Shown: one piece after another, positions 1 through 26,595 of the stretch
Numbering within the stretch: position 1 is the first letter of the stretch
Layout: each line of letters begins with the position of its first letter
NCBI GenBank assembly: GCA_020725525.1
Contig: DYEX01000007.1
Location: forward strand, 1-33,374
Source: Desulfovirgula sp.
GTDB taxonomy: Bacteria; Bacillota; Desulfotomaculia; Desulfotomaculales; Desulfovirgulaceae
Length of the DNA stretch: 33,374 nucleotides
Direction of reading: 5' to 3'
The notes under the pieces: model-generated
The model's input: the letters and a program-made list of their open reading frames with translations, nothing else
Told to the model about the DNA's origin: nothing
The model's database searches: none
Position numbers and translations under genes: made by a program

Positions 1-1539
1 ACCCTGGGTCATGAACTCCAGGGGAAGGCCCGAACATCAAGTCAGAGGTGAGACCGATGCGTTCGCGAGAAGGGCGAAGACAGCAGAAAACCCCGGAAGG
101 GGCCTGCCCGCGGGAGGAAGTGGTGAAGCCACGGGGGACCGCGGGAGGGCCGAGTCCTTCTCCGGCACAAGGCGGGGCGACACCTCGCGGGGGTCAGGAT
201 AGCGGCCTGATGGAGCAGGTGGTGGCCAGGGAGAACATGCTGGCCGCCCTGAAGCGGGTAGAGCGAAACGGAGGCGCGCCCGGCGTAGATGGCATCCCGA
301 CCGAACGGCTACGGGACCAAATCCGTGCCGAATGGCCGCGCATCCGGGAGGAACTGCTCGCAGGTACCTATAGACCGATGCCCGTGCGCCGGGTCGAAAT
401 CCCGAAACCCGGGGGAGGCAAACGGCTATTAGGGATACCCACCGCAATGGACCGCCTGATCCAGCAGGCGCTCCTGCAAGTATTGACGCCCATCTTCGAC
501 CCGCAATTTTCAGAGGCCAGTTACGGGTTTCGGCCTGGGAGGAGAGCCCATGACGCGGTAAGGAAAGCGCGTCAATACGTGGAAGAAGGATACGAATGGG
601 CGGTGGACCTGGACATAGAGAAATTCTTTGACCGGGTAAACCACGACATTCTCATGGCCCGTGTGGCCCGGAAAGTGACGGATAAGAGGGTACTCACCCT
701 TATCCGCCGCTATCTCCAGGCAGGCGTCATGGTGAACGGAGTGGTCATAGAGACGGTGGAAGGGACGCCGCAAGGTGGACCTTTAAGCCCGCTCCTGGCT
801 AACATCCTGCTGGACGACCTGGACAAAGAACTGGAAAAGAGGGGCCACAAGTTTGTCCGTTATGCCGATGACTGTAACGTATATGTCAAAAGCAAGCGGG
901 CGGGAGAAAGGGTCATGACCAGTATCCGTAAGTTCCTGCAGGAGCGGTTGAAGCTCAAAATTAACGAGCAGAAAAGCGCGGTAGACCGGCCATGGAAACT
1001 GAAATTCCTGGGGTTTAGCATGTACAAAGCCAAAGCAGGGCAAATCCTTATCCGCCTAGCACCGCAAACCATCAAACGGGTGAAGATGAAAATCCGGGAA
1101 ATAACCTCCCGGAATAAACCCGTAAGCATGGCTGAGCGCATAGAGCGGTTAAACGCTTACCTGGGCGGGTGGATGGGCTACTTTGCCCTGGCCGAAACGC
1201 CCAGCATTTTCAAGAACCTGGAAGGCTGGATGCGGAGGAGGCTGCGCATATGCCTCTGGAAGCAGTGGAAGCGAGTGCGGACAAGGTACCGCGAGCTACG
1301 TGCACTGGGACTGCCTGAATGGGTAGTACATGAATTCGCCAACGCTCGCAAAGGGCCATGGCGGATGGCCCACGGGCCAATGAATAGAGCCCTGGGCAAC
1401 GCTTACTGGCAGTCCCAGGGCCTGATGAGCTTAACCGGGCGCTATCAAAGTCTTCGTCAAGCTTGGTGAACCGCCGGATGCGGACCCGCATGTCCGGTGG
1501 TGTGAGAGGACGGGGGCTAGCCGCCCCCTCCTACTCGAT
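1..1539 (+). mobile_element. Group II intron, 3' part (5' end outside window)
   Basis: The stretch carries an intron-encoded reverse transcriptase/maturase, followed immediately by a sequence that folds as domain V (about 1468-1502: stem arms ACCGCCGGA and TCCGGTGGT, inner TGCG/CGCA hairpin, two-base bulge). A domain VI-like hairpin (GGGGGCTAGCCGCCCCC) follows, with the 3' end CTACTCGAT at 1531-1539. A CCCTGG/CCAGGG hairpin at 2-23 is part of the RNA upstream of the ORF. Domain I and the 5' splice site (GUGYG) must lie left of the window. The lack of an HNH endonuclease domain in the protein fits bacterial class C or similar introns, but I cannot assign the class. Confidence 0.85.
48..1469 (+). 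CDS. ltrA: Group II intron reverse transcriptase/maturase
   Basis: This multifunctional intron-encoded protein aids splicing and copies the intron RNA into DNA at new sites. The 473-residue product has a full reverse transcriptase region. It shows the GTPQGGPLSPLLANILL block and the catalytic YADD (in KFVRYADDCNVYVKS), then the maturase X domain ending in ALGNAYWQSQGLMSLTGRYQSL. No C-terminal HNH/endonuclease zinc motif is present, so mobility would be endonuclease-independent. The start used is GTG at 48; an in-frame ATG at 57 is an alternative. The stop is two bases from domain V, the usual arrangement for an ORF in domain IV. The gene looks intact. Confidence 0.93.
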   Translation: MRPMRSREGRRQQKTPEGACPREEVVKPRGTAGGPSPSPAQGGATPRGGQDSGLMEQVVARENMLAALKRVERNGGAPGVDGIPTERLRDQIRAEWPRIREELLAGTYRPMPVRRVEIPKPGGGKRLLGIPTAMDRLIQQALLQVLTPIFDPQFSEASYGFRPGRRAHDAVRKARQYVEEGYEWAVDLDIEKFFDRVNHDILMARVARKVTDKRVLTLIRRYLQAGVMVNGVVIETVEGTPQGGPLSPLLANILLDDLDKELEKRGHKFVRYADDCNVYVKSKRAGERVMTSIRKFLQERLKLKINEQKSAVDRPWKLKFLGFSMYKAKAGQILIRLAPQTIKRVKMKIREITSRNKPVSMAERIERLNAYLGGWMGYFALAETPSIFKNLEGWMRRRLRICLWKQWKRVRTRYRELRALGLPEWVVHEFANARKGPWRMAHGPMNRALGNAYWQSQGLMSLTGRYQSLRQAW

Positions 1540-9243: not shown

Positions 9244-10971
9244 GTGTCCAAGTTCCTGCGAGTGAACATGACCACCGGGGAAGTCAAGTTTGAAGAAGTT
9301 CCGGAAAAGTACCTTACCCTTGGGGGTAGGGGGCTGACGTCCCAGCTGGTTTTAGAAGAGGTGCCGCCCACCTGTGATCCTCTCGGTCCCTACAACAAAC
9401 TGGTCATCGCCCCGGGACTGCTCTCCGGCACCAATGCTCCGTCATCGGGCCGCCTGTCTGTGGGAGGCAAGAGCCCCCTCACCGGAGGGATTAAGGAAGC
9501 CAATGCCGGCGGTATTACTTCTCAAAAGCTGGCCAGCCTGGGCATCAAGGCCATCATTCTGGAGGGCAAACCCGCAGGCAGCGATTGGTATTTGCTTAAG
9601 GTTACTCCAGATGGGGCGGAATTATTGCCCGCCAACGACCTGGCCGGCAAGGGTACCTATGAGGTGACGGCCATCTGCCGGGAGCGGTACGGTCAAAAGG
9701 TGGGCGTAATTACCATTGGTCCTGCCGGGGAAATGCTCATGCTTGCCGCAGGAGTAACCAATAACGACGGCGAAGGCAACAGCAGCCGTTATGCCGGCCG
9801 GGGCGGCCTGGGGGCGGTAATGGGCTCCAAGAAAATTAAGGCCATCGTGGTGGACAGCCCCGCCACCTTTGATGTCCCGGTCAAAGAACCCGAGCGGTTT
9901 AAGGCGGCGGCCAGGAAGTTTGCCCAGATTTTACAAAGCCACCCCGTAACCGGGCAGGGCCTGCCCAATTATGGTACCAACGTGCTGATGAACATCATCA
10001 ATGAGGCGGGCACCCTCCCCACCAGAAACTTCCGCTTTGGCCGTTTTGACAAAGCTGCTGAGGTCAGCGGGGAGAAGCTGGCCGAGGTGGCCGTTGCCCG
10101 CGGCGGAAAGGCCACCCATGCCTGCCACCCCGGCTGCGTCATGCGGTGTTCAAACGTATATCCCATGCCCGACGGCAAGGTCTGTGCCCCCATTGAATAT
10201 GAAACCGCCTGGTCCTTTGGGCCGAACCTGGAAATCGGCGACCTGGATGTAATCGCCAGACTGAACTACATCTGCAACGACGTGGGCCTGGACACCATTG
10301 AGACAGGGTGCACCCTGGGTGTGCTCATGGAGGCCGGGGTGATACCTTTTGGCGATGGTGAAGCTGCTGTTAAGGCTTTAGAAGAGGTGGCCAAGGGTAC
10401 ACCTCTGGGGCGGATTATCGGCAGCGGTTCGGCCAACGCCGGCCGGGTTTACGGTGTGACCCGCGTGCCCGCTGTGAAGGGCCAGGGCATCCCCGCCTAT
10501 GACCCGCGGGCCTGCAAGGGTAACGGCGTTACCTACGCCACCACGCCCATGGGAGCGGATCATACCGCCGGGTACGCCGTAACGGCCAACATCCTCAAGG
10601 TAGGCGGCTATGTGGACCCGTTGAAACCTGAAAGCCAGGTGGAGCTTTCCCGGAACCTGCAAATTGCCACCGCGTTCATAGACAGTACCGGATTGTGTCT
10701 CTTTGTGGCCTTTGCCGTCCTGGACAACCCCGAGGGAATGCCCACCATTGTGGAATTGCTTAACGCCAGGTACGGCCTTGCCTTAACGGTGGATGACGCG
10801 CTCAACCTGGGCAAGCAGGTATTGAAAGTGGAAAGGGAATTTAACCTTAAAGCCGGGTTCACCAGCGCCGACGACCGGTTGCCGGAGTTCTTCAGCCTGG
10901 AAGAACTGCCGCCCCACAACACGGTCTTTGACGTCAAGGAGGAGGAACTGGATCAGGTATTTAACTTCTAA
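9244..10971 (+). CDS. aor: Tungsten-containing aldehyde:ferredoxin oxidoreductase
   Basis: Cytoplasmic tungstopterin enzyme oxidising aldehydes to acids, or the reverse, with ferredoxin. The 575-residue protein has the AOR N-domain (GGRGLTSQLVL, APGLLSGTNAPSSGRLSVGGKSPL), the pterin-proximal GGLGAVMGSKKIKA, and the [4Fe-4S] ligands C294, C298, C302 (CHPGCVMRC) with the distal C485 (STGLCLF). The first spacing is C-x3-C rather than the textbook C-x2-C of the hyperthermophile enzyme. The start is GTG with AAAGGAGG upstream. It leads a likely operon with MoaD- and MoeB-like genes. It shares only the family framework with the second AOR at 12725-14662, so the two probably differ in substrate. Confidence 0.93.
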   Translation: MSKFLRVNMTTGEVKFEEVPEKYLTLGGRGLTSQLVLEEVPPTCDPLGPYNKLVIAPGLLSGTNAPSSGRLSVGGKSPLTGGIKEANAGGITSQKLASLGIKAIILEGKPAGSDWYLLKVTPDGAELLPANDLAGKGTYEVTAICRERYGQKVGVITIGPAGEMLMLAAGVTNNDGEGNSSRYAGRGGLGAVMGSKKIKAIVVDSPATFDVPVKEPERFKAAARKFAQILQSHPVTGQGLPNYGTNVLMNIINEAGTLPTRNFRFGRFDKAAEVSGEKLAEVAVARGGKATHACHPGCVMRCSNVYPMPDGKVCAPIEYETAWSFGPNLEIGDLDVIARLNYICNDVGLDTIETGCTLGVLMEAGVIPFGDGEAAVKALEEVAKGTPLGRIIGSGSANAGRVYGVTRVPAVKGQGIPAYDPRACKGNGVTYATTPMGADHTAGYAVTANILKVGGYVDPLKPESQVELSRNLQIATAFIDSTGLCLFVAFAVLDNPEGMPTIVELLNARYGLALTVDDALNLGKQVLKVEREFNLKAGFTSADDRLPEFFSLEELPPHNTVFDVKEEELDQVFNF

Positions 10972-12724: not shown

Positions 12725-14662
12725 GTGTACGGTTACAGCGGCAAAATCCTGGATATCGACCTCACTGCCGGGAAAATAAGGGAACGCCAGGTGGAGCAGG
12801 ACTGGGCCGGGGAGTATTTAAGCGGCCTGGGGTTTAACGCCCGTTTGCTGTATGAAGAAATTCCCGCCGGTGCCGACCCCCTTGGTCCGGAAAATGTCCT
12901 TGCCTTTAATGTGGGAGTGCTGGTGGGGACGACGGTGCCCACCGCTTCCCGCACCGAAGCTTCCGCCCTCTCGCCCGCCACCGGCCTGTTTGGCACGGCC
13001 AACTCCGGCAACTTCTGGGGGAGCGAGCTTAAGTTTGCCGGATTTGACGGGGTGATCATCCGGGGAAAGGCTGCCGCGCCGGTTTATGTATGGATCTGTG
13101 ACGGCCAGGCAACAATTTTACCGGCGGGCCACCTCTGGGGGCGGGATGCCTGGGAGACGGTGCGCCGGATCCGCCGGGAACTGGACGATGACGCCATCCA
13201 GGTGGCGGCTATTGGCCAGGCCGGCGAAAACCTGGTCCGCTTTGCCAGTATAGAAAACGGCCCTTTTGATGCCTGGGCCCGCACGGGGCTGGGGGCGGTA
13301 ATGGGCAGCAAGAACCTGAAGGCCGTAGCGGTTCGGGGCCGGGGTGCCGTGCGGGTGGCTCACCGGAAGGATTTCCTGCAGGCGGTGGATGACACCCGTA
13401 AGGCCATCTTTTCTTCTCCCTTTTACGGTTCCTTTTCCCGCTTCGGCACCATGCTGGCCAGCCTGCCCTACCAGGAGTTTGGGGCCCTGCCGGGGCGCAA
13501 TTACCAGCGCGGTGCCATTGACGGCTGGGTGGAAACCCGCAGCCGCAAGGTCCTGCCCGGGTACAGTACCCGCGGTGTGGCCTGTATGGCCTGTCCCATT
13601 GCCTGTGCCCACTGGGTGGAAGTGAAGGAAGGACCTTACGCCGGCCTGAGACTTAAAGATCTGGAAATTACACCGGTGATCGGCTTTGGAGCCGGGTGTG
13701 ATATCAACAACCTGCCGGCCATCGCCATGCTTACCGAAACCTGCCAGCGCCTGGGCATGGATATGGTTTCCGCAGCGGCGGTGGTGGCCTTTGCCATGGA
13801 GTTGTACGAAAAAGGGCTGATCGGGGAAAAGGATCTGGGATTCCCCCTCACCTGGGGAGACGAACGGGCTACCATCTCTTTACTCGACATGATTGCCCAC
13901 CGCCGGGGTATGGGGGATGTGCTGGCCGAAGGCGTCAGGAGGGCGGCGCGGCATTTTCCCGGAGCATCAAGATATGCCGTGGAAGTCAAGGGGCTGGAGT
14001 GTTTCCTTTTAGACCCCCGGGCCCGCTGGTCCACCTGGACGCTGGGGTACATCACCAGCGTGCGCGGCGGGGATCACCTGCGCACCCGGAATCCGGTGGA
14101 AAATCTCCGTTACAACGAAAACCCCGTCCCTTACCTTACCGAGAAGTTTGGTTTCCCGGAGGAGATGTACGACTGTCTGGATATGCCGGACGAGTTGAAG
14201 AAAGAGATTTTTGATCCGGTTACCCGGGATGTAAACATACCCAAAATGTCCCGGTGGGCGGAGGATCTCATTGCCGTTTACAACGCCCTGGGGATGTGCA
14301 TCCGCCCTCCCGTGCTGCATACCGTGGGTCCCACCCTTTTTGCCCGCCTGTATGCCAGCTTGACCGGCATTGGTATTACACCGGCGGAAGTGATCAGGGC
14401 GGGAGAGCGCATCTGGAACCTCCAGAAGCTGTTCAACCTGCGCCACGGGGAAAAACCCGCCGATTCCGATTACCCCTCCCGTTTTTACGACGAGCCGGTG
14501 ACGGCTGGTCCCGCCGCCGGGCGCAGGCTGGACCGGGATAAGGTGCGGGAGGTGCTGCGGCAATATTACCTGGCGCGGGGGTGGGATCCGGATACGGGCG
14601 TACCCGGTGCGGCAAAGCTGGCGGAGCTGAATTTACAATCCTACACCCACCAAAGGAGTTGA
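12725..14662 (+). CDS. Tungsten-containing aldehyde:ferredoxin oxidoreductase, second
   Basis: A 645-residue AOR-family enzyme, about 70 residues longer than the first. It has the N-domain pattern (YSGKILDIDLTAG, GVLVGTTVPTASRTEASALSP), GLGAVMGSKNLKAVAVRG, and the classical cluster motif C287-x2-C290-x3-C294 (CMACPIAC) with distal C525 (GMCIRPP). The extra length is mainly in the C-terminal third. The start is GTG 12725 with GAGGGGG upstream. It sits between its ferredoxin and the tungstate permease gene, which supports tungsten as the metal. The substrate is unknown; aromatic or short-chain aldehydes are only guesses. Confidence 0.93.
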   Translation: MYGYSGKILDIDLTAGKIRERQVEQDWAGEYLSGLGFNARLLYEEIPAGADPLGPENVLAFNVGVLVGTTVPTASRTEASALSPATGLFGTANSGNFWGSELKFAGFDGVIIRGKAAAPVYVWICDGQATILPAGHLWGRDAWETVRRIRRELDDDAIQVAAIGQAGENLVRFASIENGPFDAWARTGLGAVMGSKNLKAVAVRGRGAVRVAHRKDFLQAVDDTRKAIFSSPFYGSFSRFGTMLASLPYQEFGALPGRNYQRGAIDGWVETRSRKVLPGYSTRGVACMACPIACAHWVEVKEGPYAGLRLKDLEITPVIGFGAGCDINNLPAIAMLTETCQRLGMDMVSAAAVVAFAMELYEKGLIGEKDLGFPLTWGDERATISLLDMIAHRRGMGDVLAEGVRRAARHFPGASRYAVEVKGLECFLLDPRARWSTWTLGYITSVRGGDHLRTRNPVENLRYNENPVPYLTEKFGFPEEMYDCLDMPDELKKEIFDPVTRDVNIPKMSRWAEDLIAVYNALGMCIRPPVLHTVGPTLFARLYASLTGIGITPAEVIRAGERIWNLQKLFNLRHGEKPADSDYPSRFYDEPVTAGPAAGRRLDRDKVREVLRQYYLARGWDPDTGVPGAAKLAELNLQSYTHQRS

Positions 14663-14668
14663 AGGAGT

Positions 14669-15367
14669 TTGGAAATCTTCTGGCAGGGTCTTGTGGAGGC
14701 CGTTCGTTTACTGGCGACAGGCGATCCCGAGGTTCTGGATATTACCTTACGCACTTTAAAGATCTCGGGTTTCGCCACGCTGATCAGTGTTTTAATTGGC
14801 GTTCCTTCCGGTACTCTGTTAGCCCTGACCAATTTCCCCGGCCGCCGCTTCCTGGTCAGTGTGGTTAACTTCGGCATGGGCCTGCCGCCGGTGGTGGTGG
14901 GGCTGGCCGTATGGCTTACCCTTACCCGGTACGGGCCCCTGGGTTTTCTCGACCTCCTTTACACCCCTGCAGCCATGGTGGTGGCCCAGGCCATTATTGC
15001 TTCCCCTATAGTGGCCGGCTTTACCGTGGCTGCCATGCAGTCCCTCAACCCCAGGATTCCCCTGCAGATCCTGGCCCTGGGGGCTTCCCGGGTACAGCTG
15101 CTGTGGCTTCTGGTGCGGGAGGCCCGGCTGGGCCTGCTGGCGGCGGTTATGGCCGGGTTTGGCGGGGTGATTTCCGAGGTGGGCGCCTCCATGATGGTCG
15201 GCGGCAACATCGCCGGCAGCACCCGGGTGCTCACCACGGCCACGGTACTGGCAGTGGGCCAGGGCAAGTATGAGCTGGCCACCGCCTTGAGCATCATTTT
15301 GCTGCTCCTGGCCTACGGCATTACCGCCTTCTTAACCATGGCCCAGCAGCGCGGCAGCCATGCCTAA
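14669..15367 (+). CDS. tupB: Tungstate ABC transporter permease
   Basis: Membrane subunit of a tungstate importer. The 232-residue product has about five to six hydrophobic segments and the permease coupling loop (GASRVQLLWLLVREARLGLLAAV, then EVGASMMVGGNIAGSTRVLTTA) typical of TupB/WtpB-like subunits. The start is TTG 14669, six bases after the AOR stop, with AAGGAG sites upstream. Its binding protein and ATPase (TupA, TupC) are not adjacent but encoded 5-7 kb away on the opposite strand, so the transporter is split over two transcripts. Confidence 0.9.
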   Translation: MEIFWQGLVEAVRLLATGDPEVLDITLRTLKISGFATLISVLIGVPSGTLLALTNFPGRRFLVSVVNFGMGLPPVVVGLAVWLTLTRYGPLGFLDLLYTPAAMVVAQAIIASPIVAGFTVAAMQSLNPRIPLQILALGASRVQLLWLLVREARLGLLAAVMAGFGGVISEVGASMMVGGNIAGSTRVLTTATVLAVGQGKYELATALSIILLLLAYGITAFLTMAQQRGSHA

Positions 15368-20353: not shown

Positions 20354-21100
20354 TCACCCCGCCGCGTCGTTTTCAAAAACCCGGTAAAGGGAAGTAATGT
20401 AGTTTTCCCGGCGGGGTTTTACTTTAAATATTTCCTCAAAGGTGCCCGTTTTTACCATGCGGCCGTCCTTAAGCACGGCTATGCGGTCGGTGAGGTAGGG
20501 CACCTCCGAAAAATCATGGGTGACAAAAATAGCAGCAATCCCTGTGTCTTTTAAAAGCCTGTCCAGTTCATTGAGCAGGGTCAGGCGGGTGGGGAAGTCC
20601 AGGGCGGAAAATGGTTCGTCCAGAAACAACACTTCCGGTTCCAGGGCAAAGGCCCTGGCCAGGCTGACCCTCTGGGCTTCTCCCCCCGAGAGCTGGTGGG
20701 AGCGGCGCCCGGCCAGGTGGGCGATACCCAGCCGGTCGAGCCAGCGGTCCACCCTCTTTTTTATTTCCCCCTGGGGAACCCCCCGCAGCTTCAGTCCTGT
20801 GGCCACATTCTCATAGACCGTGGTATTTAAAAGAAGCGGTTCCTGGAACACCACGGCCATGCGCCGGCGAATGGCCAGGGCGTTTCGGGAGGTGGCCGGT
20901 ACGCCCCGGAATTCCACGGTTCCGCGGGTTGGTTTTAATAAAAGGGCCATTACCTGCAACAGGGTGCTTTTGCCGGCTCCATTTGGCCCGATCAGGGCGA
21001 TGGTTTCCCTCTCGTGAAGGGCAAAATGATCGATATTTAAAATTTTCCGGTTTCCCCGTTTGAACTGTAGATTGTGCACTTCTAAGATGGTGTTGTTCAC
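20354..21100 (-). CDS. tupC: Tungstate ABC transporter ATP-binding protein
   Basis: ATPase that powers tungstate import with TupB. The 248-residue protein has Walker A GPNGAGKST, the Q-loop region VVFQEPLLLNTTV, ABC signature LSGGEAQR, Walker B VLFLDEPFSALD and the switch histidine VTHDFSE. It lies downstream of tupA on the same strand, so tupA and tupC form one transcript under the tupA leader. The gene order tupA-tupC without tupB between is unusual, as the permease gene is at 14669 on the other strand. Confidence 0.9.
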   Translation of the reverse strand: MNNTILEVHNLQFKRGNRKILNIDHFALHERETIALIGPNGAGKSTLLQVMALLLKPTRGTVEFRGVPATSRNALAIRRRMAVVFQEPLLLNTTVYENVATGLKLRGVPQGEIKKRVDRWLDRLGIAHLAGRRSHQLSGGEAQRVSLARAFALEPEVLFLDEPFSALDFPTRLTLLNELDRLLKDTGIAAIFVTHDFSEVPYLTDRIAVLKDGRMVKTGTFEEIFKVKPRRENYITSLYRVFENDAAG

Positions 21101-21218: not shown

Positions 21219-22112
21219 TTACTTCCCCAGTTCTTCTTCCTTTTTACCGGCATCGGGGAAGAACAACGGCTGGCCGTACTTGTCTACCCCGAACTTACCG
21301 ATGATCTGCTGGGTTTCCGGGGAAACCATGAAGTCTACAAAAGCCTTTGCTCCCCCGGCGTTAACCTTGCCGAATTTTTCCGGGTTGACCTGCATCACGT
21401 GATAGATGTTCAGCAAGGTTTTATCTCCCTCGTATAAAATTTTCAACTTCAGGTGTTTCTGGTTGGCCAGGTAGGTTGCCCGGTCACTGAGGGTATAGCC
21501 TCCCTTTTCCGAGGCAATGTTCAGAGTATTGCCCATGCCCGTGCCGGCTTCCTGGTACCATTTGCCGCCGGGGGTAATGCCGGCTTCTTTCCAGACGTCT
21601 TTTTCTTTCTTGTGGGTGCCCGATTCATCCCCGCGGGAAACAAAGGTGCTCTGGGTTTGGGCGATCTTCTTAAAGGCTTCCACAGTGTTTTGGGCCGACT
21701 TGATTCCGGCCGGGTCATTTTCCGGGCCGACCACCACAAAGTCGTTGTGCATTACCAGCCGGTAGTTGATGCCGACGCCGCTGTCCACCAGTTCCTTTTC
21801 CGCTTTGGGGGCGTGCACCAGCAGCACGTCCGCTTCACCTTTTTTGCCCATTTCCAGGGCCTGTCCCGTGCCCACGGCAATGGTTTTCACTTTATAACCG
21901 GTTTTCTTTTCAAATTCGGGAATAAGTACATCCAGGAGACCGCTGTCCTGGGTGCTGGTGGTGGTGGCCAGAATTACGTCCTGTTTTTGCGGTTTTTCCC
22001 GGGCCGGCTGTCCCTGTTTTGCTTCTTCCCGTGCGGTATTGGAAGAGCAGCCTGCAATAAGCATGAGCGCAAGGAGAAGGGTTAATACAGGGGTAAGAAT
22101 TCGCTTAAACAT
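21219..22112 (-). CDS. tupA: Tungstate-binding lipoprotein
   Basis: Extracellular solute-binding protein of a tungstate importer. The N-terminus is a lipoprotein signal (LTLLLALMLIAGC, cleavage before the Cys). The mature part has the TupA hallmark ATTTSTQDSGLLD, then VLLVHAPKAE, the FVSRGDESGTHKKE ligand loop and GMGNTLNIASEKGGYTLSDR. The start chosen is the ATG at 22112, with GAGGTG (complement of 22120-22125) seven bases upstream; an ATG at 22118 is too close to it. The gene is preceded by a leader with an aptamer-like fold and two terminators, so expression should respond to a tungsten/molybdenum signal. Confidence 0.93.
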   Translation of the reverse strand: MFKRILTPVLTLLLALMLIAGCSSNTAREEAKQGQPAREKPQKQDVILATTTSTQDSGLLDVLIPEFEKKTGYKVKTIAVGTGQALEMGKKGEADVLLVHAPKAEKELVDSGVGINYRLVMHNDFVVVGPENDPAGIKSAQNTVEAFKKIAQTQSTFVSRGDESGTHKKEKDVWKEAGITPGGKWYQEAGTGMGNTLNIASEKGGYTLSDRATYLANQKHLKLKILYEGDKTLLNIYHVMQVNPEKFGKVNAGGAKAFVDFMVSPETQQIIGKFGVDKYGQPLFFPDAGKKEEELGK

Positions 22113-22147
22113 TGTCATTCACCTCTTCAGGTATTGGAGATTGGGAC

Positions 22148-22185
22148 AAAAAAGCTGTGCTCTGGCGAAAAGGCAGAAGCACAGC
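22148..22185 (-). terminator. Second leader terminator of tupA
   Basis: On the minus strand, GCTGTGC...GCACAGC forms a stem (with an inner CTGCC/GGCAG-type extension) followed directly by TTTTTT. It lies between the first terminator and the tupA ribosome site, inside the untranslated leader. Confidence 0.8.
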
Positions 22186-22221
22186 CGTTTTCCGGGCGGT
22201 CAGGTGGTTATACGCCCGCAG

Positions 22222-22255
22222 AAAAAAACTGTGTTCTGCGGGAAACAGAACACAG
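22222..22255 (-). terminator. First leader terminator of tupA (riboswitch expression platform)
   Basis: On the minus strand, CTGTGTTCTG pairs perfectly with CAGAACACAG (loop TTTCCCG), followed by seven T residues. The 5' arm is also complementary to the GAACACAG that overlaps the 3' side of the aptamer's closing stem, so terminator and antiterminator are mutually exclusive. Confidence 0.85.
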
Positions 22256-22271
22256 GTCTACCCAAAAAGTA

Positions 22272-22375
22272 CAGCTGTGTTCTCCTTTCCGCACTGGGAG
22301 GCATACCAGTTTCCCGGCATACCCTGCCGGCCCGAAAACCATAGCCCTGGCCACAGGTAATCGGGCTCGGAGAAC
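22272..22375 (-). promoter_or_regulatory. Candidate Moco/Tuco-type (tungsten/molybdenum cofactor) riboswitch
   Basis: Read on the minus strand, the leader has a closing stem GTTCTCC (22375-22369) with GGAGAAC (22285-22279). It encloses about 83 bases with internal helices (GCCCGA/TCGGGC; a CCGG-GAAA-CTGG hairpin) and the string GCCTCCCAGTGCGGAAAGG. The 3' arm continues as GAACACAG and can instead pair with the CTGTGTTC arm of the first terminator. The fold, the terminator switch and the position before a tungstate uptake gene fit a Moco/Tuco-type RNA. I recognise the GCCTCCC...GCGGAAAGG pattern from memory and cannot align it here. Predicted logic: ligand bound, closing stem forms, terminator forms, tupA off. 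Confidence 0.6.
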
Positions 22376-22574
22376 GGTTGCTATATTGTGCCTGCCGGCA
22401 AGTTGCATGACGTAATACTTATTCGAGAGAATAAAAAGAAATCCTCCCGAAGGGACAATTTTTTTAGCCATTAAATAGTGTTCATAAAGATTCGCCCGCG
22501 GCGGCAGGGATCGGTCGTCCTTTGTAGAAATAAAAACATAAAAAGATAAATTTCTCACAGGGGAGTTGGAGAGG
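22376..22574. other. Divergent intergenic region between tupA and ferredoxin
   Basis: No gene is seen. On the minus strand, a possible -10 (TATAGC, about 22379-22384) lies just before the aptamer's closing stem. A palindrome TTATTC-GAGA-GAATAA is at 22419-22434, a possible operator. On the plus strand, TTGTAG (22522-22527) and a downstream AT-rich stretch could be the ferredoxin promoter. All are weak individually. Confidence 0.4.
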
Positions 22575-22868
22575 ATGGCCGAAGCCCAAAAACAACAAAA
22601 AGAGGTGGTCATTACTTTAAACGGTGTCCAGTTTGTAGTGCCGCCGGGGACCAAAGTAAAAGATGCCGCTGCGTCTGCGGGCGTGGAGATTCCGCCTTTA
22701 AAAGTGGATCCGGAAAAATGCAAAGGCTGCCAGATGTGCACCAAAGCCTGTGAGACCGGTGCCATCTCGGGCAATAAAAAGGAACCCCACTCCATTGACC
22801 AGGCCCTGTGTATCCGATGCGGTGAATGTCTGGCGAAGTGCAAGCTGGGTGCTATTGTTCCTGCCTGA
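22575..22868 (+). CDS. Dicluster [4Fe-4S] ferredoxin with Cys-less beta-grasp N-domain
   Basis: A 97-residue protein. Residues about 11-41 (VVITLNGVQFVVPPGTKVKDAA, AGVEIPPL) resemble the start of the [2Fe-2S] domain of NuoG/hydrogenase/formate dehydrogenase subunits, but the cluster cysteines are absent. Two [4Fe-4S] motifs follow: C49, C52, C55, C59 and C79, C82, C85, C89. ATG 22575 is nine bases after GGGGAG; an in-frame TTG at 22566 is less likely. It ends at a strong terminator. Probably an electron carrier for an enzyme that needs the pterin cofactor, given fdhD and mogA nearby. Confidence 0.85.
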   Translation: MAEAQKQQKEVVITLNGVQFVVPPGTKVKDAAASAGVEIPPLKVDPEKCKGCQMCTKACETGAISGNKKEPHSIDQALCIRCGECLAKCKLGAIVPA

Positions 22869-25451: not shown

Positions 25452-26120
25452 TTAAAAGCATCGATCACGTAAAACATAGTACTTTTCTTCCCGGTAGAGG
25501 TAATTACTCGTGGCCAGTTCTTTCAGCACCTGTGCCACCATTACCCGGGATGCTCCTACCATGGAAGCTATTTCCTGCTGAGTTAGATGGAGCTTGATAC
25601 GCGTACCTTCAGGGCAGACTTCACCGTGTTCCCGGGCCAGCCGTATTAATAAACTTAACACTTTCTCCCGGGTAGTAAGCGAATTTAATTCGGCCACCTG
25701 CTCCCAGGTAGCATAGAGACGGCTTCCCAGGCTGGCAATAACCTGCCACGCCAGATCCGGTGATTTTTTGATTTCCTCTTCCATGAGGCGTCTGCTGATG
25801 CTGCAAACTTTGGCGTCTTCTAAAGCGATGGCAGTTGCCGGATGACATTTTTCCTGAAACAGAGCAGCTTCACCGATGGTTTCGCCCCGGGTAATGATTT
25901 GCAAAATTGTCTCCCGGCCATCTTCGCTTACCCGTACCATTTTAAAACTTCCTTCCTTAACCAGGCAAACAGTATCTACTTTATCCCCCTGGTAAAAAAG
26001 AACCTCTCCCCTCCGGATATAGCGTTTTGTAGCAGCCTGGCAAATGGGCCGAAAGGTTTCCCTCTCCACACCAGTAAAAAGGGGAATATCCTTAAGGCAA
26101 AGGCAACGTTTTACTTCCAT
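25452..26120 (-). CDS. Crp/Fnr-family transcriptional regulator
   Basis: A 222-residue regulator: cyclic-nucleotide-binding-type beta-barrel (KDIPLFTGVERETF, IRRGEVLFYQGDKVDTVCLVKEGSFKMVRVSEDGRETILQIITRGETIGEAALF), long dimer helix, then a C-terminal helix-turn-helix (LTQQEIASMVGASRVMVAQVLKELATSNYL). The recognition helix has GASR-MVAQ. The start is ATG 26120 with GGG upstream; upstream in-frame codons on the minus strand derive from a recombinase relic and the intergenic region. Cysteines near the N-terminus (C6, C8) and elsewhere are not in the classic Fnr iron-sulfur pattern. The effector is unknown. Two matching palindromes flank the gene. Confidence 0.9.
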   Translation of the reverse strand: MEVKRCLCLKDIPLFTGVERETFRPICQAATKRYIRRGEVLFYQGDKVDTVCLVKEGSFKMVRVSEDGRETILQIITRGETIGEAALFQEKCHPATAIALEDAKVCSISRRLMEEEIKKSPDLAWQVIASLGSRLYATWEQVAELNSLTTREKVLSLLIRLAREHGEVCPEGTRIKLHLTQQEIASMVGASRVMVAQVLKELATSNYLYREEKYYVLRDRCF

Positions 26121-26181
26121 CTTCTTTTCCCTGCCCATCAAATTTTCATTCAACTTAATTTTGCCTGTTTCTAAACACATA

Positions 26182-26224
26182 ATTTTACCACAACTTTTTT
26201 TCAGACAATGTAAAAATTTTAACA
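26182..26224 (-). promoter_or_regulatory. Promoter and palindrome of the Crp/Fnr regulator gene
   Basis: Minus strand: TGTTAAAATTTTTACA (26224-26209, near-palindromic), then 21 bases, then TAAAAT (26187-26182). The spacing is identical to that before the PPOX operon, which points to autoregulation. Confidence 0.6.
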
Positions 26225-26243
26225 TGTAGCGTTCGTTGCCGGG

Positions 26244-26505
26244 CGGCTGGGGTACTCCAGCGTGCAGATTACCCCTGAACACATACTCCCACATCCGTCC
26301 CGACGCCCAGGCAGAGACAGTGAAAACCATCGAGAGCATCTTCAGCAAGCAGGTTTGCAAATGTTTGCAACTGGAGAAAAAAGACCGGGAAGCCTCGATT
26401 TTCGGGATTTCCCAACTCCTGTACAGATACTGCATGTATAAAAAACTTTTTTGTGGGGAAAATGTTTCTAGGGCAGCTAAGAAATGTTTGCACAAAAAGC
26501 AGTGA
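26244..26505 (+). pseudogene. Relic of a tyrosine recombinase (integrase) C-terminus
   Basis: Translated in two frames, RLGYSSVQIT (26244-26273) and then LNTYSHIRPDAQAETVKTIESIF (26275-26343) match the usual C-terminal end of phage-type integrases (LGHSS-x-IT-L-TYSH). A single extra C at about 26274 breaks the frame, and the LGH motif has become LGY. The catalytic core upstream is absent. The in-frame continuation to 26505 is not recognisable. This is a dead remnant of a former mobile element, lying between the regulator and groES. Confidence 0.72.
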
Positions 26506-26595
26506 TAACAGCTCACTGGCGGGAGAAAAAGCGAGATAATTCCCTGTAATTTCCCTTGACCGGTGAAAAAGGGGAATTAAGTCTTTTGAGGACAG

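Follow-up and report, generated by a model that had tools for sequence, protein, structure and literature searches.

The tupA locus

The window analyzed here is a stretch of 33,374 nucleotides from Desulfovirgula sp. (GCA_020725525.1, contig DYEX01000007.1). On its minus strand, a leader containing a Moco RNA aptamer and two intrinsic terminators, T1 and T2, precedes tupA, which encodes a tungstate-type substrate-binding protein and starts about 30 nt after the U-tract of T2 (Table 1). Among the 80 TupA loci that we kept for comparison, the closest is from Desulfofundulus australicus (97%). The original prediction treated tupA and tupC as a unit. tupA and a gene for a tupC-like ATPase are indeed adjacent, but the permease expected of a tupABC operon is not beside them. 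A permease of family NF038017 is encoded on the opposite strand at a distance of approximately 5 kb, flanked by genes for an aldehyde:ferredoxin oxidoreductase and MoeA, and the genes of the tungstate transporter may be divided between two transcription units.

Aldehyde:ferredoxin oxidoreductases are tungsten enzymes. The window encodes two of them, along with MoeA, a MoeA-PBP fusion, FdhD and a MoaB/MogA-type protein, and these genes, together with tupA, fit a role of the locus in tungsten metabolism. ThiF-family and ThiS-family proteins are encoded between the two oxidoreductases. Three further elements of the window are included in Table 1.

Table 1. Features of the tupA leader and of the surrounding window.
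Feature	Position	Strand	Basis and remarks
Moco RNA (RF01055) aptamer, P3-less variant	22266-22384	-	cmscan
P1 5' strand, GTTCTCC	22369-22375	-	read from sequence
Switching strand, GCGGAAAGGAGAACACAGC	22274-22292	-	3' end of the aptamer; conserved GGAAAGG plus P1 3' strand
T1, intrinsic terminator stem-loop	22229-22255	-	scans and fold; U7 tract 22222-22228; -15.1 kcal/mol
T2, second intrinsic terminator stem-loop	22154-22186	-	U6 tract 22148-22153; -15.7 to -17.3 kcal/mol, depending on which bases are included
T2 5' arm and loop, GCTGTGCTTCTGCCTTTTCGC	22165-22185	-	antisense to the switching strand; predicted duplex -28.3 kcal/mol
tupA, tungstate-type ABC substrate-binding protein	21219-22118	-	NF041772 (tung_bind_TupA) 246.7 bits, below cut-off of 400; PF12849 189.3 bits
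ABC ATPase, tupC-like, 3' of tupA	20354-21100	-	best NCBIfam match NF040840 (WtpC) 191.2 bits, below cut-off of 440
ABC permease, family NF038017	14753-15304 (ORF 14669-15367)	+	260 bits
Aldehyde:ferredoxin oxidoreductases (two)	9244-10971 and 12725-14662	+	
Group II intron reverse transcriptase/maturase	48-1469	+	
Group II intron domain (RF00029)	1469-1539	+	45.1 bits; follows the maturase
Crp/Fnr-type regulator	25452-26516	-	Pfam matches from about residue 165; long N-terminal part unmatched
ORF of 298 aa	26703-27599	-	no Pfam or NCBIfam match; partly opposite a chaperonin gene; perhaps not a gene

A P3-less Moco RNA upstream of tupA

The leader contains a member of the Moco RNA family, as judged by both sequence and structure. 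It matches the full length of RF01055 (model positions 1-135) with a cmscan score of 73.9 bits, compared to a gathering cut-off of 36 (E = 2.8e-16), and lies upstream of a Mo/W transport gene. A scan with this Rfam model had been proposed as a check on the original prediction of a Moco/Tuco RNA, and the covariance-model match, the absence of P3 and the tungsten gene context all bear that prediction out. The predicted aptamer-like domain, closed by GTTCTCC (22375-22369) and GGAGAAC (22285-22279), was found on the minus strand as described; these arms form P1, and its seven pairs are without variation in all eight leaders of the clade. This is the one copy of RF01055 in its own genome assembly (3.24 Mb in 191 contigs). 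The family is present in 58 of 60 relatives and in 104 of 113 genomes of the order, and 41 of the 80 TupA loci contain a hit of our covariance model R1, although some of these loci went into building R1.

The Moco RNA class has been divided into forms with and without the P3 stem, and the P3-less form has been linked to organisms that use the tungsten cofactor (17 of 19) (PMC2408646). The model positions for P3 are deleted in the alignment of the window to RF01055, and tungsten-metabolism genes (tupA and the two aldehyde:ferredoxin oxidoreductases) are present. We infer from these two properties that the RNA is probably a sensor of the tungsten cofactor (the Tuco or Wco subtype). The gene that it is predicted to control encodes a tungstate-type binding protein, and the leader is therefore relevant to the split that has been proposed between Moco RNAs sensing molybdenum and those sensing tungsten. 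No sigma-70-like site was detected when 22100-22650 was scanned for promoters.

The element resembles described Moco RNAs in its covariance-model match, the GAAA loop of P4, the GGAAAGG near the 3' end and its gene context, and intrinsic-terminator-like stem-loops are one type of expression platform in this class (PMC2408646). It differs in having two terminators, each of them matching the switching strand, an arrangement not described in the accessible part of that account. The RNA family is already known, and the expression platform is a new variant.

Two tandem terminators

The presence of two tandem terminators after the aptamer is confirmed, each at the position originally claimed. T1 has the arms CTGTGTTCTG...CAGAACACAG (22255-22229), followed by T7 (22228-22222), and T2 has the arms GCTGTGC...GCACAGC (22185-22154), followed by T6 (22153-22148); 42 bases separate the two hairpins. 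A simple pattern scan of 22100-22650 listed T1 (one hairpin found vs 0.9 expected in shuffled sequence), and T2 was absent from its list. The 3' arm of P1 runs on into ACACAG, so that GAACACAG is complementary to CTGTGTTC of T1, as originally read. The region between T2 and tupA (22119-22153) is 36 bases in the window and approximately 180 in L002.

Hairpins corresponding to T1 and T2 recur in all eight Desulfofundulus/Desulfovirgula tupA leaders (alignment A1: the window, L002, L003, L004, L005, G001, G002 and G004), including that of L004, in which the automated scan chose other hairpins and T1 and T2 were assigned from the sequence by hand. The stem of T2 has one mismatch in L004, and its U-run has four residues in two leaders (L002 and L005) and five in two others (L004 and G002). 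In L005 and L089, the automated scan also listed a third hairpin 3' of T2. A hairpin seen in folds between the T1 loop and the spacer (CCCGCAG/CTGCGGG) was dropped, as the alignment showed it to be broken in G002 and absent from L004.

Both terminators are complementary to one strand of the aptamer

In the minimum free energy fold of the window leader up to T2, the 3' end of the aptamer was paired with the 5' arm and loop of T2. For this reason, we tested complementarity directly, comparing the aptamer tail starting at GTGCGGAAAGGAG with the 5' two-thirds of each terminator. Two controls were used: 151 background hairpins (of 236 found in the window and in L002-L005, those at or below -12 kcal/mol and outside the leaders) and 500 dinucleotide shuffles per leader.

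The switching strand is complementary to each terminator in its 5' part. For T2, the calculated duplex energies were -28.3 kcal/mol in the window (L001), -26.4 in L002, -24.1 in L003, -23.5 in L004, -25.1 in L005, -24.5 in L089, -26.4 in L105 and -26.4 in L126. None of the 151 background hairpins gave a value as low in any of the eight leaders, and 0-7 of the 500 shuffles did so (one of 500 for the window). The complementarity takes in the conserved GGAAAGG of the aptamer strand in 8/8 Desulfofundulus/Desulfovirgula tupA leaders; in the window, the T2 loop CCTTTTCGC is predicted to pair with GCGGAAAGG of the aptamer. For T1, the duplexes ranged from -19.1 to -22.5 kcal/mol, values equaled by 0-16 of the 151 background hairpins and 1-7 of the 500 shuffles, and four of the eight leaders passed a 2% background cut. 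Judged by sequence, T2 is the better match to the aptamer in each of the eight leaders, and both terminators look cognate to the single aptamer. The same complementarity argues that the aptamer strand may control T2 as well as T1.

Six of the eight T2 5' parts are nearly alike (four are identical and two have one or two edits), so that the independent evidence is thin and comes chiefly from L004 (D. thermobenzoicus) and from L005 (Desulfovirgula thermocuniculi), in both of which the upper part of T2 differs by seven edits. In both, complementarity to the aptamer strand is retained better than under random edits: the fraction of randomly edited sequences with a duplex as low was 0.005-0.013 for L004 and 0.003-0.011 for L005, depending on the indel rate. 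A control in which the upper part of T2 alone was shuffled was less impressive (0.065 for L004, 0.034 for L005 and 0.040 for the window, the three tested). Over the eight leaders, 93.3% of the cells of the T2 antiterminator helix are paired, vs 37-59% when the helix is slid. No pair was altered on both sides in either the T1 or the T2 antiterminator helix of the eight leaders. The aptamer strand is nearly invariant, being part of a conserved aptamer, and covariation is thus unusable here, for or against the helices. In both antiterminator helices, an A-U pair close to the outer end is unpaired in five of the eight leaders.

We also considered an origin in which T2 and the spacer before it are the remnant of the 3' half of a second Moco riboswitch. 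Two tandem Moco RNAs do precede tupA in L007 (3595-3890) and L008 (3632-3913), a different arrangement at the same gene, and the spacer and T2 align colinearly with the leader's own aptamer, with a shuffle fraction of 0.013-0.021 in the four close leaders. However, the resemblance is weak in L003 (0.12) and L126 (0.10) and absent in L004 (0.69) and L005 (0.55), which appear to have T2 with no trace of a second aptamer. In addition, a relaxed cmscan of 22119-22250 gave no match to RF01055 even at an E value of 10, and the genome has a single match. We have rejected this origin, which we regard as very improbable.

A proposed model in which one strand controls two terminators in turn

Based on these observations, we propose that the P3-less Moco RNA represses tupA-tupC by termination, with one strand (22292-22274) controlling the two terminators in turn; we would put the probability of this reading at about 0.5. 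When the cofactor is bound, the switching strand would be held in P1 and the aptamer core and T1 would form, and any transcripts leaking past T1 would then meet T2. When the cofactor is absent, the switching strand would pair with T1, at its 5' arm and loop, letting polymerase pass. When T2 begins to emerge, the strand would shift onto its 5' arm and loop. T1 might then zip up harmlessly behind the polymerase while T2 is blocked and tupA is transcribed. The original prediction, a Moco/Tuco switch acting through termination, is supported by our results. It provided no means of releasing T2 without ligand, a gap that pairing between T2 and the switching strand could fill. More tentatively, we suggest that a single aptamer, by passing one strand from T1 to T2 behind the moving polymerase, multiplies the shut-off with no second aptamer.

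The energies of the named states were calculated at 37 C for secondary structure alone, leaving out ligand, pseudoknots and polymerase. They serve to rank options and prove nothing, and the genus is thermophilic. The switch first proposed, a competition between P1 and T1 for the P1 3' strand, agrees with these energies: when the 5' part of T1 has just emerged, the antiterminator is favored over P1 by 6.9-13.1 kcal/mol in all eight leaders. At the U-tract of T1, the antiterminator ranges from 2.4 kcal/mol worse to 4.7 kcal/mol better than P1 with T1.

When the 5' part of T2 has emerged, the state with T1 closed and the strand on T2 is better than P1 with T1 by 3.1-12.4 kcal/mol in all eight leaders, and it is better than the state with the strand on T1 in seven, with a tie in L004. 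With T2 complete, pairing of the strand with T2 is better than P1 plus both formed terminators in two leaders (by 9.4 kcal/mol in the window and 3.3 in L126) and 0.7-4.7 kcal/mol worse in the other six. These six also favor, by 1.8-6.1 kcal/mol, the state in which the strand is still on T1 and T2 has formed over pairing of the strand with T2. The end-point energies thus leave T2 free to form in six of the eight leaders, where any blocking of T2 must be kinetic. Membership in the aptamer family, the two hairpins, their complementarity to the one strand and the retention of this complementarity in relatives are computed results; the identity of the ligand, the OFF logic in this organism and the transfer of the strand, with its kinetics, we infer.

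A different route to T2 would leave the strand on the 5' arm of T1 in the absence of ligand, so that the freed 3' arm of T1, CAGAACACAG, blocks the 5' arm of T2. The duplex between these two arms is calculated at -13.9 kcal/mol in the window, a value reached by none of 139 other terminators on either side, and at -11.1 to -13.9 kcal/mol in six of the eight leaders; in L004 it is predicted to contain 11 uninterrupted pairs. However, the duplex is weak in L003 (-6.4) and L005 (-5.7), and when the helix between the strand and T1 is enforced, the duplex is missing from the best fold at the relevant length in all eight leaders. Adding it costs 0.2-1.8 kcal/mol in seven leaders and 12.3 in L005. We consider this route improbable and have rejected it.

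Comparison with other dual-terminator leaders

The main rival to a transfer of the strand is that T1 alone is switched, while T2 serves as an unswitched damper, removing a fraction of transcripts at all times. There is precedent for such a terminator in the Bacillus cereus group, where the c-di-GMP-I riboswitch Bc1 has two terminators separated by 28 bp (PMC11218506). In Bc1, ligand is reported to unfold T1 and to leave T2 almost intact, which masks the response, and no response was seen in cells (PMC11218506). The end-point energies that favor a formed T2 in six of the eight leaders are in keeping with an unswitched T2, and the short U-runs in L002, L004, L005 and G002 (four or five U) would make its stopping leaky and hence tolerable. 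However, a plain terminator has no need of sequence antisense to the aptamer 3' strand, and such sequence reaches into the T2 loop in all eight leaders and is kept despite the seven edits in L004, and likewise in L005. We regard an unswitched T2 as a possibility to be taken seriously, if a doubtful one.

The leader is thus like Bc1 in combining one aptamer with two intrinsic terminators in a single expression platform, and the distance between them is 28 bp there and 42 bases here. The aptamers are different, and T2 is reported as unswitched in Bc1, whereas the T2 described here, being complementary to the switching strand, could be switched. If T2 is controlled as we propose, then this leader suggests a way around the problem posed by Bc1, in which the antisense of the switching strand is written into both terminators. 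Tandem, pseudo-cooperative Moco and Wco riboswitches, which a review places under multiple expression platforms (PMC9481103), also have more than one platform per leader for one ligand; there, each platform has its own aptamer (PMC9481103; PMC2408646), in contrast to the single aptamer here. The rimP leader of some Gammaproteobacteria has tandem terminators in one attenuator, with the second one upstream, but no metabolite aptamer is named in the accessible part of that report (PMC2965389). Further related work has been published (PMC2258182; PMC9337991). In the literature that we searched, mostly papers outside subscription and in part, we found no account of two terminators being served by a single aptamer strand.

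We suspect that a transfer of the strand during transcription, if it occurs, would let one ligand-binding event set two stop signals and so lower the leak in tungstate uptake. The leader would then be a clean test case for such transfer, and an antisense segment reaching into the loop of a second terminator would be a signature for finding more switches of this kind.

Distribution of the arrangement

The original prediction considered two terminators after one aptamer to be unusual. This agrees with the authors of the Bc1 study, who state that dual terminators are rarely seen within one expression platform (PMC11218506), and with our survey of Moco RNA leaders. For the survey, 382 leaders were found with a regular expression, which recovered 43 of the 51 plus-strand hits of R1 against which it was compared, and a cut on motif quality left 224. 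A single automated rule assigned at least two cognate terminators to five of the eight clade leaders, one to two of them and none to the remaining one; of the 216 other leaders, none had two and 62 had one. In a first set of 144 distinct aptamers found with the regular expression, 136 were from outside the clade, and 39 of these had at least one terminator cognate at the 2% cut. Two of the 136 passed the rule for two cognate terminators, and both were set aside: in L133+, the first hairpin overlaps the aptamer strand itself, and in L146-, the second hairpin follows a second RF01055 hit. Repeatedly, a leader had a second aptamer with a terminator of its own; in L007 and L008, for example, two Moco RNAs precede tupA.

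Other leaders share smaller features. A terminator with the sequence CTCCAGCC...GGCTGGAG, or close to it, recurs after Moco RNAs in L083, L084, L087, L088 and L135, and its CTCC is complementary to the GGAG strand of the aptamer. Several other leaders have CCTTTTGC, which is complementary to GGAAAGG, in a terminator loop.
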